This document shows positions 25,353 to 32,182 of a DNA stretch of 64,000 nt, one piece after another. Made by a program: the position numbers and the translations under genes. The DNA lies in assembly GCA_949285785.1 (NCBI GenBank), contig CASEAG010000031.1, forward strand, positions 62,001 to 126,000, written 5' to 3'. How positions within the stretch are numbered: position 1 is the first letter of the stretch; each line of letters starts with the position of its first letter. The notes below the pieces were generated by a model. It had not been told where the DNA came from. It saw nothing but the letters and a program-made list of their open reading frames with translations, and did no database searches. Source of the DNA: an uncultured Spirochaetales bacterium (lineage in GTDB: Bacteria > Spirochaetota > Spirochaetia > Sphaerochaetales > Sphaerochaetaceae).

Positions 25353-25367
25353 ACTTATGACATAAGT
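25353..25367. repeat. 15-bp palindrome, candidate operator
   Basis: ACTTATGACATAAGT reads the same on both strands except for the central base. Its right half recurs at the -35 of the promoter at 25457 (ACTGTTGACATAAGT, 13 of 15 identical). A related copy, TCTTATGTCATGACA (27562-27576), precedes the second unit at nearly the same distance from its promoter. Confidence 0.55.
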
Positions 25368-25398
25368 CGTGATTATCTAGATCAGATTACTTGCCACA

Positions 25399-25441
25399 AA
25401 TCATGTGAATCATGTGTGTTCTACAGTAAATCACGTGTGGT
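25399..25441. repeat. Three AATCAYGTG direct repeats
   Basis: AATCATGTG at 25399-25407 is followed immediately by AATCATGTGTG at 25408-25418, then AATCACGTGTGG starts at 25429. The second and third copies are 21 bases apart, about two helical turns, ending 16 bases before the -35. This suggests an activator binding face. The role is inferred. Confidence 0.45.
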
Positions 25442-25456
25442 TCAACATTTGAACTG

Positions 25457-25484
25457 TTGACATAAGTTTGGCCGGGTCTATACT
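25457..25484 (+). promoter_or_regulatory. Promoter of island unit 1
   Basis: TTGACA (25457-25462), 16-base spacer, TATACT (25479-25484): a near-consensus promoter. The -35 overlaps a half site of the upstream palindrome. Confidence 0.7.
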
Positions 25485-25577
25485 TTTTCTGCGATAAAAT
25501 GCTGCTGGTGCTTTCGAGCTGCCAGATGCAGGTGCTGAACATTCAGCTCTTGACTGGATGCCGGATTAGGAGAGTGG

Positions 25578-25691
25578 ATGAAGGACGTCGTCGTGGCCCA
25601 TTTCATTAAGGCAGATGTCTGCAGTTGCGTTCCGCTGTGGCGGAATGCCAGACTTTTCTGTGCATCGCATCTCAATGGAGCCTGCCTATGA
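25578..25691 (+). CDS. Possible 37-residue leader peptide
   Basis: An open frame with AGGAG 5-6 nt before its ATG, beginning MKDVVVAHFIKADVCSC and ending exactly over the next start (ATGA at 25688-25691). It carries four cysteines and has no similarity I recognise. The good ribosome-binding site and stop/start overlap suggest a translated leader coupled to the next gene. Such a short frame could also be chance. Confidence 0.3.
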   Translation: MKDVVVAHFIKADVCSCVPLWRNARLFCASHLNGACL

Positions 25692-26269
25692 GGAAGGTCC
25701 TGATTGCACTTGTGCTGTTCATTGCGACTATTGCCATTGCGTACTCTGCCGACGAGGCGAACTGGTATTATTGGAAAACAGGGAGTATGGAGATAGCGGC
25801 GAACAAGGCCATTGATCCTTCTGTCTCCATAACTCCTATCAGCAGTTCGGAATCTGGTGAAGAAGGTATCCCTGTAGAGCATACTGCGGCAAATATACAG
25901 CCTGATGTTGAAATTTCATCAGCCAGAAAGATAGCCACATGGAAGCTGGATTCCAGCTCAACTGACATAATAATTGACATTGATGCCCAATATCTGACGA
26001 ATGAGGCTTATCCCGGAGTCGAGATAGATTATCTTATTGGATTCCAGTACACGATAGATGGCAAGACAGAGACACTGGAGGTAGGGCCGGAAAAACCATT
26101 GGACAATTCACAGCCGTTCTCTTCTGAAAATGATCATACGGTTCATTTCGAAAACCAACCGATTCGATTCAAGCTGACTGAGAAAGGACTTTCCACGGCC
26201 AACACTGCAGTTGCTGATATGTATACTGCAGATGTGACGATCACCGTGGAAGCAGGAGGCGGGGTATGA
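25688..26269 (+). CDS. Secreted beta-rich protein, island unit 1 (subunit-like)
   Basis: A 193-residue protein with a clear Sec signal peptide (MRKVLIALVLFIATIAIAYS, cut before ADEANWYYW) and GGAG upstream. The mature part alternates polar and hydrophobic residues as in an immunoglobulin-like sandwich and ends YTADVTITVEA, a strand pattern shared with the other small proteins of the island. ARKIATWKL (79-87) matches GRKIAYWTI in the protein encoded at 29074. AT-rich codons set it apart from the flanking housekeeping genes. I recognise no named family; a pilin-like or surface-layer subunit is an inference. Confidence 0.6.
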   Translation: MRKVLIALVLFIATIAIAYSADEANWYYWKTGSMEIAANKAIDPSVSITPISSSESGEEGIPVEHTAANIQPDVEISSARKIATWKLDSSSTDIIIDIDAQYLTNEAYPGVEIDYLIGFQYTIDGKTETLEVGPEKPLDNSQPFSSENDHTVHFENQPIRFKLTEKGLSTANTAVADMYTADVTITVEAGGGV

Positions 26270-27507
26270 AAAAGCTGATCTTCTGTCTTCTGGTCATGGT
26301 GTTATGCAGTACGGTGGCTTTTGCAGGCATTGTCATTTCCAATACTGGAAAGACATTTGACCTGTCGTCTGTGTATCCGGAAGTCGGCGAGCTGACCAGC
26401 GAGGATGAAGTTGAATATGATGCTCGTCAGGTAATAGGCACGATTACAATTGATGACACGACCGACAAGACTGACCTTGAACTGGATTTCAGCAATATGC
26501 AATTTGTGTTTCCCGGACAGGGGGAGTCAACTAGGTCGTATGATATCAATCTTGTCTACAAACAGAAGACGACATTCAGAGGACAAGAGACCAGCAGTTT
26601 CAGACAAAGCGAGATAATACATGATGTCAATGGCAAGCATACTTTCAACATTCCAGCTACAGAAGGGGAAAATGTATCTACGATTGAAGATCTTGAATTG
26701 TCCTGGACGCAGAAATTCTACATCTCTCTTGTATGGTTGTTGGAAGGATACTGCTTTACTGATGAGTACTGGGGAACGGGTATTTTGCATGATGGCCTGC
26801 AACATTTCATAGAAGATTATGCTAGTGCCTATGTTTCGGCTGTCCAGATCGATATTGTTCTTGTGCTTCCTGAACTGACTGCAGAAGAGGAATACAATAT
26901 GGTCAATTCCGACAACGGTTATGTGGGAACATGTAAGCTGTCGACGGGAGAGGAGATCAGGTTTTACGGCAGTTATAAAGGCAAGCCTGAGAATGTAGAA
27001 CTCTCGCTTTCAGTGGCACAGAATGACAATTCTCGGGCAATTGATCTTGATGATACAAGTGTTCAGCCAGATTCTTCCGGACTGGATATCGGAACTTACG
27101 AATATGTTGTGACATACCCGGCAGGATACGATGGCAGTCATGCCTTTTATATCTTCGCCTCCTCATCTGATGATCCGACGACAGCCGGTAAAGCATTCAC
27201 GCTGATACACGAAAACGGCACCAATGCACTGGAATATGAAGTCGGGCTTTCTGGAGGTGGAAGCTCGGAGAAATGGTTCAGTGGCACTGATTCTGTGGCT
27301 ATCGGATCTGGTGTGACCAATGATGAAGCAAAGCTGTTGGCATCTGACAACAATTACAGCAGCTATGCCGTATCTGATAATGGACGTACTACTCGAGGTT
27401 ATGGCGGCTCAATCCTGTTCAGGTTGACGGATGCACAAATGAATGAAGATCCGCTGGCGGGGGACTATAGTTCGACAATCTATTTCCATGTGCTGTCATG
27501 TGAGTGA
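26266..27507 (+). CDS. Large secreted two-part protein, island unit 1 (tip-like)
   Basis: A 413-residue protein with signal peptide MKKLIFCLLVMVLCSTVAFA, its start overlapping the preceding gene (ATGA). It appears to have two beta-rich halves. The first ends near IDIVLVLPELTAEEE. The second contains IFASSSDDPTTAGKAFTL and ends DYSSTIYFHVLSC. Both landmarks recur in the protein encoded at 29814 (DVLLVIPEKV; MFVSSSDNPDASGKPFAL; YYSADVYFHVSC), so the two are paralogues. A subunit gene followed by a double-length gene recalls pilus operons with a tip adhesin. No chaperone or usher is present. Function is unknown. Confidence 0.6.
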   Translation: MKKLIFCLLVMVLCSTVAFAGIVISNTGKTFDLSSVYPEVGELTSEDEVEYDARQVIGTITIDDTTDKTDLELDFSNMQFVFPGQGESTRSYDINLVYKQKTTFRGQETSSFRQSEIIHDVNGKHTFNIPATEGENVSTIEDLELSWTQKFYISLVWLLEGYCFTDEYWGTGILHDGLQHFIEDYASAYVSAVQIDIVLVLPELTAEEEYNMVNSDNGYVGTCKLSTGEEIRFYGSYKGKPENVELSLSVAQNDNSRAIDLDDTSVQPDSSGLDIGTYEYVVTYPAGYDGSHAFYIFASSSDDPTTAGKAFTLIHENGTNALEYEVGLSGGGSSEKWFSGTDSVAIGSGVTNDEAKLLASDNNYSSYAVSDNGRTTRGYGGSILFRLTDAQMNEDPLAGDYSSTIYFHVLSCE

Positions 27508-27561
27508 AATGATGGTTGTATGGTCTTGCACCTGATTTTCCTTTGGGTAAATACGCTTTGT

Positions 27562-27576
27562 TCTTATGTCATGACA
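27562..27576. repeat. Palindrome copy upstream of island unit 2
   Basis: TCTTATGTCATGACA shares the core CTTATGTCAT with the reverse complement of the palindrome at 25353-25367. It lies 103 bases before the unit-2 -35; the first copy lies 104 bases before its own. Confidence 0.45.
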
Positions 27577-27664
27577 ATTGTTTGCAAATACTGGATCCCT
27601 ATGCGATTCTTTAAAGATTTCTTTGTATTATAGGCATTTTGTCATTATGTCGCTAGCAAAACTG

Positions 27665-27692
27665 TTGACATATGTTACCTCAGTCTTAAAAT
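27665..27692 (+). promoter_or_regulatory. Promoter of island unit 2
   Basis: TTGACA (27665-27670), 16-base spacer, TAAAAT (27687-27692). The context ACTGTTGACATATGTT differs at one position from that of the unit-1 promoter (ACTGTTGACATAAGTT), so both are probably controlled alike. Confidence 0.65.
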
Positions 27693-27777
27693 ATTCATGC
27701 AAAGGTGAGATGTCGACCTGATCGATAGGTCTATTGATATGATTGGTAATCTGGATGAGGCCAGGAGGGTTGTTGTG

Positions 27778-28323
27778 GTGTTGAGAAAACTAAGTTTTGC
27801 CATTCTACTTGCCCTATGTGCCATTCTGCCTGTTGGTGCCGATTACAATACTATTCTGAAGAACATTTCCTTCGATTATGTAATTGAAATCTACAATGGA
27901 GTCACTGAGGTCAATTTCGTTGATCGAGATGGAAATCTCATCAATGAAAACAGCGAGCCTGTGTCACTCCAGGTTGCTGGTCAGGAAGGCTATGGATATC
28001 CTCAATATGGCATTCGGTTCCGTTCAAATGAAAATGGGTCGTATTCGCTGAAAATTAAGTTGAATCCGCTGAAGACAACAACGGATCAGTCCATCACATA
28101 TGATGTACAGATTCAGCAGAGGTCTCCATCTGCAATCAAGTTGACAAAAACCATTGAAAATCAAAGTGTTGAAGACCTGTTCGAGCAATCTATTGTCGTT
28201 TCTGACACTTCTATGATTGAGCGTGAATATGATGTCTACTACAAAGTCGGTGTAGAAGATATGAACAGATTTGCAGGGGGCACAGAGTTCTCCTCAGATG
28301 TAACGGTGTATATTGAGAACTGA
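27778..28323 (+). CDS. Secreted protein, island unit 2, first gene
   Basis: About 181 residues. The signal peptide LRKLSFAILLALCAILPVGA begins just after a strong AGGAGG, so GTG 27778 (9-nt spacing) or TTG 27781 is taken as the start. The ATG at 27739 would place charged residues in front of the signal. The mature part (DYNTILKNISFDYVIEIYNG...) is beta-rich and ends TEFSSDVTVYIEN, the same closing-strand pattern as its neighbours. No recognised domain. It leads a four-gene run of secreted proteins. Confidence 0.55.
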   Translation: MLRKLSFAILLALCAILPVGADYNTILKNISFDYVIEIYNGVTEVNFVDRDGNLINENSEPVSLQVAGQEGYGYPQYGIRFRSNENGSYSLKIKLNPLKTTTDQSITYDVQIQQRSPSAIKLTKTIENQSVEDLFEQSIVVSDTSMIEREYDVYYKVGVEDMNRFAGGTEFSSDVTVYIEN

Positions 28324-28324
28324 A

Positions 28325-29077
28325 ATGAAAAAAATCATTCTCCATGTCCTTCTCATTTGTCTTGTTTCTTCAACCTTGTGTGCAGCGAAGAACGGAATAG
28401 GCCGAGAGCTGTCCAGAAGCAGCAGCACATCATTTGAGTTCCAAGCGATTAAAAACGGCCCAATAGTTGATCAGAATTGGGAGTACAAGATTGAAGTGAC
28501 TGATCTGACAGGAAGTGGTAGAATGATTGCTGGTGGAGAGGAACTAAACGTATCAGCAGATATTCTAAGCACCAAGGATTGGTGTGTTTTGTTTGAGATC
28601 AGCTATTCATCGAATTCCCTCAAGTATCCGATACGATTTAATGTCATGCTTTCCATATTCACGAATGGTGATGATGTGATTCCTACTGATGGCAAGATCG
28701 AATCAAAATATGGATTCGAAGAAGATGGATACTACTATTTTGGACCTTGGGGTGTATCAGAGGACAGCTTCAAGGAAAAGTATTTTGGTCAAGGTAGTTC
28801 TATTTCTGATGGAGAACAACAAAAAGGATATGGCGATAGTAGCGACAAAAACCATTTGATATTCAATCCATTGGAAATAAGATCGTCTGAGGATGATGAA
28901 AAGATTACTTTTTTCTATGGCGAGACGTATAATGCTTTGTTCAAATTCAATGCAGTAGTTTCGATTCGACTTGATGAAGATGCTCCACATACAACAGATG
29001 GTCATCTTGACCAGACCGTGTTATCTGGTGGCGAATATAGAATGAATGTCCTGCTGACAGTGGAGGCGGAAGCATGA
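28325..29077 (+). CDS. Secreted protein, island unit 2, second gene
   Basis: A 250-residue protein with signal peptide MKKIILHVLLICLVSSTLCA. The ATG lies 1 base after the preceding stop. Mature sequence features include NWEYKIEVTDLTGSGRMIAGG and LNVSADILST, and it ends GEYRMNVLLTVEAEA, matching the C-terminal strand of the other small island proteins. It is strongly AT-rich with low-GC codons. Not recognised; probably a secreted or surface subunit. Confidence 0.55.
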   Translation: MKKIILHVLLICLVSSTLCAAKNGIGRELSRSSSTSFEFQAIKNGPIVDQNWEYKIEVTDLTGSGRMIAGGEELNVSADILSTKDWCVLFEISYSSNSLKYPIRFNVMLSIFTNGDDVIPTDGKIESKYGFEEDGYYYFGPWGVSEDSFKEKYFGQGSSISDGEQQKGYGDSSDKNHLIFNPLEIRSSEDDEKITFFYGETYNALFKFNAVVSIRLDEDAPHTTDGHLDQTVLSGGEYRMNVLLTVEAEA

Positions 29078-29817
29078 GAAAGAAATTGTTGCTCATATTG
29101 GTATCAGGCTTTGTCCTGATCAGTCCGCTTTTCTGTGATGATGCGATTGCTGTTATAAAGACCAAAGTACCGACTCCAATAATGCGTTCGATGTCGATAG
29201 GCGGTATGGTGGACAACCAGGTATCCGTCAGCGTAAATGTCATCTCTGGAGGCGTCGGATCAGCTGAAGGCAGTCCGTTTGATTTGGCTGGCGATGATGT
29301 CATGTCAGTATCTAATACTGGCGGATGGAATATGGAGGTCGGACGTAAAATCGCCTATTGGACAATAGCCGCAAGAACCTTGCCTGTTTCTGTGACTATA
29401 ACTGCAGATGTCTTGCAGCAACAGGTTGTATACGATAATGAGGTGAAAATCGCAAAGGTCCCATATATCCTGCGTTTTTCATACCGATATGCAAAGTACG
29501 ATGAGATAGGGAAATATGTTGGTGATGAAGTTGGTGCCTTTTTTATCATTTCCCAGGATTTTGAAGCATTGGAATCTGATGGCAATCCTGCTGTTGTTCC
29601 AGAACTTGTGAATACGGTAAATGCAGATAGAGTTGTTGAAGGCAAGTTTACATTCAACAAGACGGATGATATAGATCAGTTCTTCGTCGTTGAAAATGGT
29701 GAGGTTCGAGTATTCATCCCCGAATATGCGTGGGAAGTGGTTAAGAATGATGACTATCGTGTCCCACCTGGTACCTATAACGCTGTCGTCAAGATTTCGG
29801 TGGAGGCTGACGAATGA
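29074..29817 (+). CDS. Secreted beta-rich protein, island unit 2, third gene
   Basis: A 247-residue protein with signal peptide MRKKLLLILVSGFVLISPLF, coupled to its neighbours by ATGA overlaps at both ends. GRKIAYWTI (90-98) is followed by an alternating-strand stretch PVSVTITADVL, paralleling the protein encoded at 25688. The end, PGTYNAVVKISVEADE, has the Gly-x-Tyr turn plus final strand seen in many fimbrial and coat subunits. Family unknown. Confidence 0.57.
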   Translation: MRKKLLLILVSGFVLISPLFCDDAIAVIKTKVPTPIMRSMSIGGMVDNQVSVSVNVISGGVGSAEGSPFDLAGDDVMSVSNTGGWNMEVGRKIAYWTIAARTLPVSVTITADVLQQQVVYDNEVKIAKVPYILRFSYRYAKYDEIGKYVGDEVGAFFIISQDFEALESDGNPAVVPELVNTVNADRVVEGKFTFNKTDDIDQFFVVENGEVRVFIPEYAWEVVKNDDYRVPPGTYNAVVKISVEADE

Positions 29818-30989
29818 AAAAGGCATGTCTTCTGTTTGTTTTAATTCTGTTATGCTCTGCACTGGCTCTTTTTGCTGATACCGTGTACTTCCTGCCATAT
29901 CAAGCCTGCTTCAACGTGGATCTGAAGAATGGGAATTATGACGGATCGTCGAACGGAATATTCCAGGATGCGAATCACACTCATGGGGATTATGTCAATG
30001 AGGATCTAGTAGGTTTGATTGGTGTTGCAACTCCGACTTCAAACAGGACTTATACCATAGATTTTGATATCTCTGACAATGGCTGGTTTTACACCTCTCA
30101 ATCTGATCCTTCGCTCAGAATTCCATTCGGAATCGATCTGGTGATCAGGTATAACGACCATAATGGAATGTCGGAATATGATACTACGTATGGTGATAAG
30201 GTATATCACCTAGGATATAATGACAATAAAAACAATGTCGGCGATGCGACACCGATAACCGTAAATGTTGGAGGCGACTGGCATTCGTTCTGGTGTGATG
30301 TATTGCTAGTGATTCCCGAAAAGGTGAGAGCCGATCTTCAGAGCACAGGAGCTGCGGTTGTAGGGAATGCGAATGATTATACTGCAGCCTTCACTATCAG
30401 AATGACTGATGGGAATAACAATGTCCATTCATATCCAATCAATATCAACGGCTATTACGAAATAAAGTCGGAAGGTACAGGCAATATTATCTTCAATGTC
30501 GTTCCGAATGCACAGGCAACAAGTCTGGATCTTTCCGATAGCATGAAAAATGTAGAAATCGAGATAGGTTCATACTATTATTCAACGGAGGCATTGAGGG
30601 GAACTTATCCTGATCCCGGTTATTCGCCTTTCAAGATGTTTGTATCGTCATCGGATAATCCTGATGCTTCTGGCAAGCCATTTGCTCTTCGGCATGTAAA
30701 TGACATCGAGGAAAAGCTTCCATCCATCCCATTTGAAATCAGGTTGGATGGTATGGTAGATGATAGTAACAATATCGTTTGGTATGACGGAACTGGATCG
30801 AGCAGGGGTGAACAATATACCCAAGGCGGTTATCTGTATACCACAACGCGAGAGAACGGTGTTCAGGCTGTGACTTTCTATGATAAAGGGGATATTTGGT
30901 TCAAAATCAAAAATGATGCGGATTTCTCACAGCTGACTGGTGGATATTATTCTGCTGACGTGTATTTCCATGTGAGTTGCAACTGGTGA
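29814..30989 (+). CDS. Large secreted two-part protein, island unit 2 (tip-like)
   Basis: A 391-residue protein with signal peptide MKKACLLFVLILLCSALALF. It is a paralogue of the protein encoded at 26266: the first half ends DVLLVIPEKVRADLQ, and the second has MFVSSSDNPDASGKPFALRH and ends GGYYSADVYFHVSCNW. It closes the four-gene unit just as its paralogue closes the two-gene unit. Aromatic and Asn/Asp-rich loops would suit a binding surface, but no ligand can be named. No clear terminator was found after it. Confidence 0.6.
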   Translation: MKKACLLFVLILLCSALALFADTVYFLPYQACFNVDLKNGNYDGSSNGIFQDANHTHGDYVNEDLVGLIGVATPTSNRTYTIDFDISDNGWFYTSQSDPSLRIPFGIDLVIRYNDHNGMSEYDTTYGDKVYHLGYNDNKNNVGDATPITVNVGGDWHSFWCDVLLVIPEKVRADLQSTGAAVVGNANDYTAAFTIRMTDGNNNVHSYPININGYYEIKSEGTGNIIFNVVPNAQATSLDLSDSMKNVEIEIGSYYYSTEALRGTYPDPGYSPFKMFVSSSDNPDASGKPFALRHVNDIEEKLPSIPFEIRLDGMVDDSNNIVWYDGTGSSRGEQYTQGGYLYTTTRENGVQAVTFYDKGDIWFKIKNDADFSQLTGGYYSADVYFHVSCNW

Positions 30990-31229: not shown

Positions 31230-32036
31230 CTATTTGACTGCGTACTTCGCCGCGGCCTCGCTGACCTGTTCGGCACTAAGTCCGGTCATCTTGAGAATCT
31301 CCTCGAGTGAATATCTACCTTCCTTCAGCATCATCGCCGCAAGTTCGGTCTTCCCTTCAACTTTTCCCTCGGTCTTGGCTTCGTTGTAAAGCCTTTCCAT
31401 CTCATCGCTCATATCTCTTGCTCCCTCCTCTCCCATAAGCACATCGAGAGTGCTCCTGACCTCTTCGTTGAACGCCCTTTCAGGGTCGCTCTGGTTCATG
31501 TCAGCCATCAGACGTCCGATGGCATCGTCACTCCTGTACTCTCCGTTGACGAAGATTATACGTCCTCCCTCTTCCAGCTGTCTTCCATCATCGCTCTTGA
31601 AGCTGTAGCTGTACATCGCCTTGCCGCTCATCTCCACATCGCCGTCGCAGATGAAGATGACGCACCTGCGGGGAAGGTCGGCATAGCCATGGCTTCCGGC
31701 ATCCAGACTGTGCACCGTGAGCATCGCCTCGTAGTAGGCGGCCCTGCGGGGAAGGTCGTCGAAGCGGCCCTTCTGGACCTCCACGTCATACATGTTACCA
31801 CAGCTGTCGAAGCAAAGTGCATCGAACACGACTCCCCTGTGTCCTATGCCGGGGACCTTCTCCTGGCATCGCACGTCCGTCACCACCAGGTCATCCTGCG
31901 AGAGGACGGTGCGTATGATCAGTTCGGCGAGGGCCATGGAGTGTCTGATGGCGACGGTGAAGGGCACGTCGTCCATCAGCGTCGGATGGGCGATCACCCG
32001 CCGCTTCATTTCCTCGAATATAATTCTGCTATTCAT
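31230..32036 (-). CDS. Rpn-family PD-(D/E)XK nuclease/putative transposase
   Basis: A 268-residue protein. The nuclease core is seen as VVFDALCFDSCGNMYDVEVQ, with Asp and the E-x-Q of the PD-(D/E)XK fold, followed by LPRRAAYYEAML. The C-terminus has a charged helix (EAKTEGKVEGKTE) and a short LKEGRYSLEEILKMTGLSAE repeat typical of the family. Family members (RpnA-E) promote RecA-independent recombination. The start at 32036 was chosen for GGAGG 8 nt upstream. It sits between the AT-rich island and housekeeping genes, but there are no terminal inverted repeats to make it an insertion sequence. Confidence 0.85.
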   Translation of the reverse strand: MNSRIIFEEMKRRVIAHPTLMDDVPFTVAIRHSMALAELIIRTVLSQDDLVVTDVRCQEKVPGIGHRGVVFDALCFDSCGNMYDVEVQKGRFDDLPRRAAYYEAMLTVHSLDAGSHGYADLPRRCVIFICDGDVEMSGKAMYSYSFKSDDGRQLEEGGRIIFVNGEYRSDDAIGRLMADMNQSDPERAFNEEVRSTLDVLMGEEGARDMSDEMERLYNEAKTEGKVEGKTELAAMMLKEGRYSLEEILKMTGLSAEQVSEAAAKYAVK

Positions 32037-32182
32037 TCCGGACACCTCCGATGAAGTCCTCATGACTCTCATATCCAGGAATGATGGATTCTGTGCACAT
32101 CACATCCGGATAGCCGATACGATGTGTTCATGGACAGCACCTTGAGTGCCGTGAAAGGCCATCCTGCCGCGTCTTTTCCCGA

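Follow-up and report, generated by a model that had tools for sequence, protein, structure and literature searches.

Four sites, arranged as distal-proximal pairs at two promoters (P1 and P2) in the 64,000-nucleotide stretch of Sphaerochaetaceae DNA analysed here (the window), are probably operators of a FadR-type GntR regulator, in this genome the candidate R1, that would control the cell's chaperone-usher pilus genes. As judged from sequence comparison, the same motif is found before the chaperone-usher operon, before the subunit clusters and before R1, and it is paired with homologous GntR-FCD genes class-wide. Through this set of switches, a single regulator of the sugar-acid type appears to govern the hair-like surface fibres of gut spirochaetes. 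The finding also provides a named, testable candidate regulator for a spirochaete pilus system; our literature search found no paper combining “chaperone-usher” and “Sphaerochaeta”. An earlier interpretation made from the letters of the window (the sequence-only reading), in which the two promoters of an “island” share a core and a palindrome whose spacing is kept for DNA looping, is partly supported when taken as a whole.

Paired sites and promoter architecture

P1 lies upstream of A1 and A2, and P2 upstream of B1 to B4 (Table 1). The two promoters have in common ACTGTTGACATAWGTT on the −35 box, and CTTATGWCAT-type sites lie upstream of both; all of the strings and distances given in the sequence-only reading were found, the distal site starting 104 bp (P1) or 103 bp (P2) before TTGACA. 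The 16-mer ACTGTTGACATAWGTT has exactly two perfect matches genome-wide, at P1 and P2, the next best having three mismatches. The shorter pattern CTTATGWCATAAG has one perfect match in the genome (at 25354) and five more with one mismatch, and at up to two mismatches the genome is not enriched for it (29 matches versus 33 for the reversed pattern); its genome signal resides in the best sites. We also scored the window with a matrix of 15 columns, derived from 83 sites at related loci. The window itself was excluded from the matrix, which is nonetheless not fully independent of it, because among its sites are those of the orthologous locus in L114, a close relative. The four best scores in the 64-kb window are the four P1/P2 sites, and a fourth-best score equally high was seen in 0 of 200 simulated (order-1) windows. 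The weakest of the four, the P2 distal site, has one half intact and the other degenerate.

Table 1. Genes, putative operators and predicted promoter elements in the window, and loci of the small secreted protein in related genomes
Feature	Position	Strand	Remarks
P1 distal operator (putative)	25353..25367	.	perfect 7-1-7 palindrome ACTTATGACATAAGT; 26.1 bits, window best
P1 proximal operator (putative)	25453..25467	+	overlaps −35 box; 15.4 bits; lies in ACTGTTGACATAAGTT (25453-25468)
P1 −35 TTGACA	25457..25462	+	predicted by sequence reading
P1 −10 TATACT	25479..25484	+	16-nt spacer; predicted by sequence reading
A1, secreted subunit-like gene	25688..26269	+	E 8e-14 to subunit profile
A2, secreted subunit-like gene	26266..27507	+	E 6e-16 to second subunit profile
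P2 distal operator (putative)	27562..27576	.	degenerate TCTTATGTCATGACA; 8.9 bits
P2 proximal operator (putative)	27661..27675	+	overlaps −35 box; 13.0 bits; lies in ACTGTTGACATATGTT (27661-27676)
P2 −35 TTGACA	27665..27670	+	predicted by sequence reading
P2 −10 TAAAAT	27687..27692	+	16-nt spacer; predicted by sequence reading
B1, secreted protein gene	27739..28323	+	start uncertain, perhaps 27778 or 27781
B2, secreted subunit-like gene	28325..29077	+	E 4e-6 and 2e-5 to subunit profiles
B3, secreted subunit-like gene	29074..29817	+	E 1e-20 to subunit profile
B4, secreted subunit-like gene	29814..30989	+	E 2e-44 to subunit profile
Small secreted protein (TLHLxATVPP...)	L025:3939-4220	-
Small secreted protein (TLHLxATVPP...)	L098: about 2640-2920
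Small secreted protein (TLHLxATVPP...)	L101, L103, L105, L108, L110

After gapped alignment, the P1 and P2 spacers are only 49% identical, which is about the level of unrelated spacers. The earlier description of the intervening bases as otherwise different is thus borne out, as is the view that both promoters kept a site for the same regulator, in a distal copy and in a copy on the −35 box, while the spacer diverged. The idea that selection holds the spacing exactly is not supported. At the orthologous locus downstream of trpS, the distal and proximal sites are 88, 89, 89, 100 and 101 bp apart (with a degenerate 90 in L106), and elsewhere the motif spacings are 30 to 34, 65 to 67, 74 to 76 or 106 to 109 bp. 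In the aligned register, the values for P1 and P2 are 100 and 99 bp. DNA looping is likewise not supported: the spacings vary, and a test for helical phasing at 10.5 bp gave p 0.50 with all spacings and p 0.09 with the promoter pairs, neither of them significant; phasing at 11 bp gave p 0.03, uncorrected for the five periods tried.

The promoters fall into classes according to the position of the proximal site. In class B, which comprises P2 and the locus downstream of trpS (P1 of the window, L099, L111, L113 and L114), the proximal site lies on the −35 box. In class A, found at the subunit clusters of relatives, it overlaps the spacer and the −10 box (TTGAC, about 17 nt, TAAGAT), with the distal site 65 to 67 or 74 to 76 bp above. 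In other genera, the chaperone gene is preceded by TTGACAYAAGT and, 106 to 109 bp further up, by a second site. The promoter hexamers and the operator are nested, such that TTATGACATAA becomes a −35 box with two changes and a −10 box with one change at the end. Most sites read TTAT-GWC-ATAA. The half-site TTATG is commoner than the TTGTG of the FadR consensus, about 24% of half-sites having a G/C box and the rest A/T, and the palindrome has the geometry of TKGT-N3-ACMA.

The most likely mechanism is repression by occlusion of the −35 or −10 box, assisted by a helper site. R1 would bind the sites as a dimer and, because the operator embeds the −35 box (here) or the −10 box (TAAGAT, in relatives), binding at the proximal site would block sigma-70 RNA polymerase. 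The distal site may serve to raise occupancy, and repression would presumably be relieved when the FCD domain binds a small acidic ligand. Alternatively, R1 could be an activator that recruits polymerase from the distal site, with the proximal copy being merely a variant −35 box. Where the chaperone-usher operon of the genus has a site at all, it is a lone one about 88 bp above the predicted start, unaccompanied by a proximal copy (C22, L124, L150 and L151), an arrangement that simple occlusion does not explain; moreover, GntR1/2 of Corynebacterium glutamicum are described as activating ptsG from a site centred at −60 (PMC2230225). Activation is nevertheless rather unlikely, since the proximal copies overlap the −35 box in one class and the spacer and −10 box in the other, which are positions typical of repression, and since the distance of the distal site ranges from 30 to 109 bp. 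The chaperone-usher operons of L145 to L149 have no site scoring 8 or more within 450 bp.

Distribution of the motif and the candidate regulator

Near-perfect sites are few in this genome (P1, C22:22140, C18:14879 and C16:47777). The C22 site, ACATATGACATAAGT, precedes the chaperone-usher operon and the C18 site precedes R1, while a small secreted protein gene on C2 has three weaker sites in the roughly 140 bp before it. A motif common throughout the genome was to have counted against the sequence-only reading, and ACTTRTGWCAYAAGT is rare there. At up to one mismatch, we found 73 sites for ACTTRTGWCAYAAGT in 16 genomes of the genus, compared with 15 for the reversed pattern. By our own reading, about 61 of the 73 are upstream of chaperone-usher, subunit or small secreted protein genes; two are at R1, three are by or after murA, and seven are elsewhere, most of these seven not having been examined in detail. 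The exact consensus occurs 26 times in the genus (in 8 of the 16 genomes) and 3 times in the remaining 123 family members; the reversed pattern occurs 0 and 6 times in these two sets, respectively. From the genome, genus and family counts, we rejected the motif as a general genomic word.

Two further settings of the motif were noted. In three genomes (L117:3550-3930, which is C16 of this genome, G000; L118:3990-4370; and L123:4060-4540), a perfect or near-perfect operator follows murA in a stretch rich in TTTTCCACA and TTTTCAACA repeats, which we take to be DnaA-box-like; the stretch is perhaps a replication origin. Upstream of the gene for a small secreted protein of about 90 amino acids (Table 1) there are several operators, often paired 17 and 34 bp apart, and in L108 and L110 a dnaA-like gene lies beside it.

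R1 is the gene, among the GntR matches in the genus, that lies directly downstream of the C18 site, and both of its domains score over the cut-off (GntR, PF00392, 53.3 bits against 27; FCD, PF07729, 49.6 bits against 24.3). Operators are found at −158 and −4 of the R1 start in this genome and in G011, which makes 2 of the 13 genus R1 genes looked at, two of the others being covered by only 290 to 295 bp of upstream sequence. In four genera (L325 to L328), the gene that the R1 homologue faces was judged by eye to be secreted and subunit-like, and between the two genes lie one or two operator variants, the pairs being about 187 to 189 bp apart; the two of these facing genes that were scanned had no Pfam match. 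Homologues in four other families are 24 to 33% identical to R1 and have near-perfect operators at their start. The four read in detail face carbohydrate-type operons: TRAP transporter genes together with an aldolase-like gene in L321, L323 and L324 (identified by profile in L324 and by eye in the other two), and aldolase-like and ribokinase-like genes in L322. In the L322 genome (G060), a second near-perfect operator, at L322:10791, precedes an ABC amino-acid-type transporter operon.

A class-wide search of 297 genomes, made by pattern so that loci were not chosen by their protein, matched 24 genomes, 5 within the genus and 19 outside the family; the reversed pattern matched 11 times, in 10 genomes. 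In 14 of the 19 outside-family genomes, the motif is at a GntR-FCD gene of the R1 clade, the sites all scoring at least 23 bits, and in the other five (site scores of 16 to 21 bits) no GntR-FCD gene of the clade was found within 1.5 kb. The recognition helix [SGT][ST]RSxREA is common to the R1 orthologues and to 12 of these 14 proteins, and is absent from the more distant GntR proteins included in the alignment.

It could be argued that a different regulator, either another GntR or some other protein, reads the pilus operators, its operator coinciding by chance with that of the GntR-FCD clade. In G008 there are 11 sites but R1 is missing, the best profile match (E 3e-5) being to another GntR, and most R1 genes of the genus lack an operator. 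FUR boxes have a 7-1-7 geometry, similar to that of the sites found here, and the FUR family is present in 15 of the 16 genomes. Set against this are the class-wide pairing of motif and clade, the R1 homologues that face subunit-like genes in four genera, the shared recognition helix, and the fact that a paralogue of R1 on C35 of this genome, rejected as the regulator, has both a different helix and no operator. On balance, we consider a different regulator improbable. As G008 also lacks the neighbouring ABC gene, either loss of R1 or an assembly gap may account for its absence there. R1 is also present in G003 and G006, both of which lack the chaperone. The FUR family was set aside as not discriminating, given its presence in nearly all of the genomes. 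A regulator encoded beside the chaperone-usher operon was likewise rejected, in that the TetR-like gene (13 loci) and the response-regulator-like gene (8 loci) are at loci without good sites; no further gene family recurs as a regulator in these neighbourhoods.

The operator looks older than its pilus use: other spirochaete families have it between a regulator of this kind and operons with TRAP transporter, aldolase-like or ribokinase genes. One tentative possibility, which we put forward with some reserve, is that a sugar-acid-sensing GntR and its operator, both conserved throughout the Spirochaetia, moved from nutrient-uptake operons to the chaperone-usher pili of the Sphaerochaetaceae, where an acid sugar from the host or its mucus would set pilus expression in gut spirochaetes.

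Subunit genes and the chaperone-usher system

A Pfam scan found no family for A1, A2 or B1 to B4. A1, A2, B2, B3 and B4 all match subunit profiles made from genes inside the chaperone-usher operons of other Sphaerochaetaceae genera; B1 matches neither Pfam nor these profiles. The predicted structure of B3 is mostly beta (pLDDT 78); its best PDB match is the FedF fimbrial adhesin, a weak one (E 6e-3), and none of the PDB matches reached E 0.001. Both components required of the pathway, a PapD-like chaperone and an usher, are over the cut-off on C22 (PF00345, PapD_N, 32 bits against 23; PF00577, 33.1 bits against 27.1), and both genes are downstream of an operator.

A2 and B4 are paralogous (E 3e-10), and the similarity of A1 to B3 is marginal (E 0.002). 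The shared spacing of P1 and P2 may thus stem in part from duplication, because both precede paralogous subunit genes. That spacing and core are mere remains of a tandem duplication, with no current regulation, is very improbable despite this paralogy and the near-equal spacing in the aligned register, as the sites persist although only about half of the spacer positions remain identical, and other species have the same site pair at this locus with different spacing.

If “island” is taken to mean a mobile island, the term does not hold, since such subunit genes are also found after trpS in six related genomes. Several further features of these loci were observed. In the window, the subunit operons are followed by an Rpn/PDDEXK transposase-like nuclease gene (31230-32072, minus strand). 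In the genus, several subunit clusters were seen by eye to adjoin a rhomboid-type membrane protease-like gene (L097, L100, L102, L104, L107, L109, L115 and L120), and the trpS locus of G004 (L122:4278-10604) has two full four-gene subunit sets with no recognisable operator.

Comparison with known systems

As with type 1 and P pili, the system has a PapD-like chaperone, an usher and clustered secreted subunits, but the subunits here have no Pfam family and are spread over several loci away from the usher. The putative regulator shares with the FadR subfamily (FadR, PdhR, DgoR and C. glutamicum GntR1/2) a GntR helix-turn-helix with an FCD domain, an odd palindrome, and sites near the regulator's own gene. 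A survey of GntR motifs gives the typical boxes as TKGT-N3-ACMA (PMC4494728, in whose main text “Spirochaet” is absent), whereas here they are mostly TTAT-GWC-ATAA, with G in about a quarter of half-sites, and the targets are pilus genes. One regulator-operator pair would be traceable across many families, with its targets shifting from carbohydrate-type operons to surface fibres.

By analogy, the nearest known parallel is the action of NanR on fimB in E. coli. NanR is also a GntR-FCD protein, is described as affecting type 1 fimbriae via fimB (PMC8777976), and is the best NCBIfam name for both R1 and the L322 homologue. However, these score 77 and 108.6 bits, respectively, against a NanR cut-off of 260, and whereas NanR is reported to bind GGTATA repeats (PMC8012715), the sites here are palindromic and read ACTTRTGWCAYAAGT; on both grounds we rejected the identification of R1 as NanR. 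The two also differ in that NanR acts on a recombinase gene, while here the structural genes themselves carry the sites. If our reading is true, a metabolic signal would be linked to adhesion, as E. coli NanR does by another route, and, under the tentative acid-sugar scenario, the system would represent a counterpart of NanR-fimB with a different operator, wired directly to the pilus genes.
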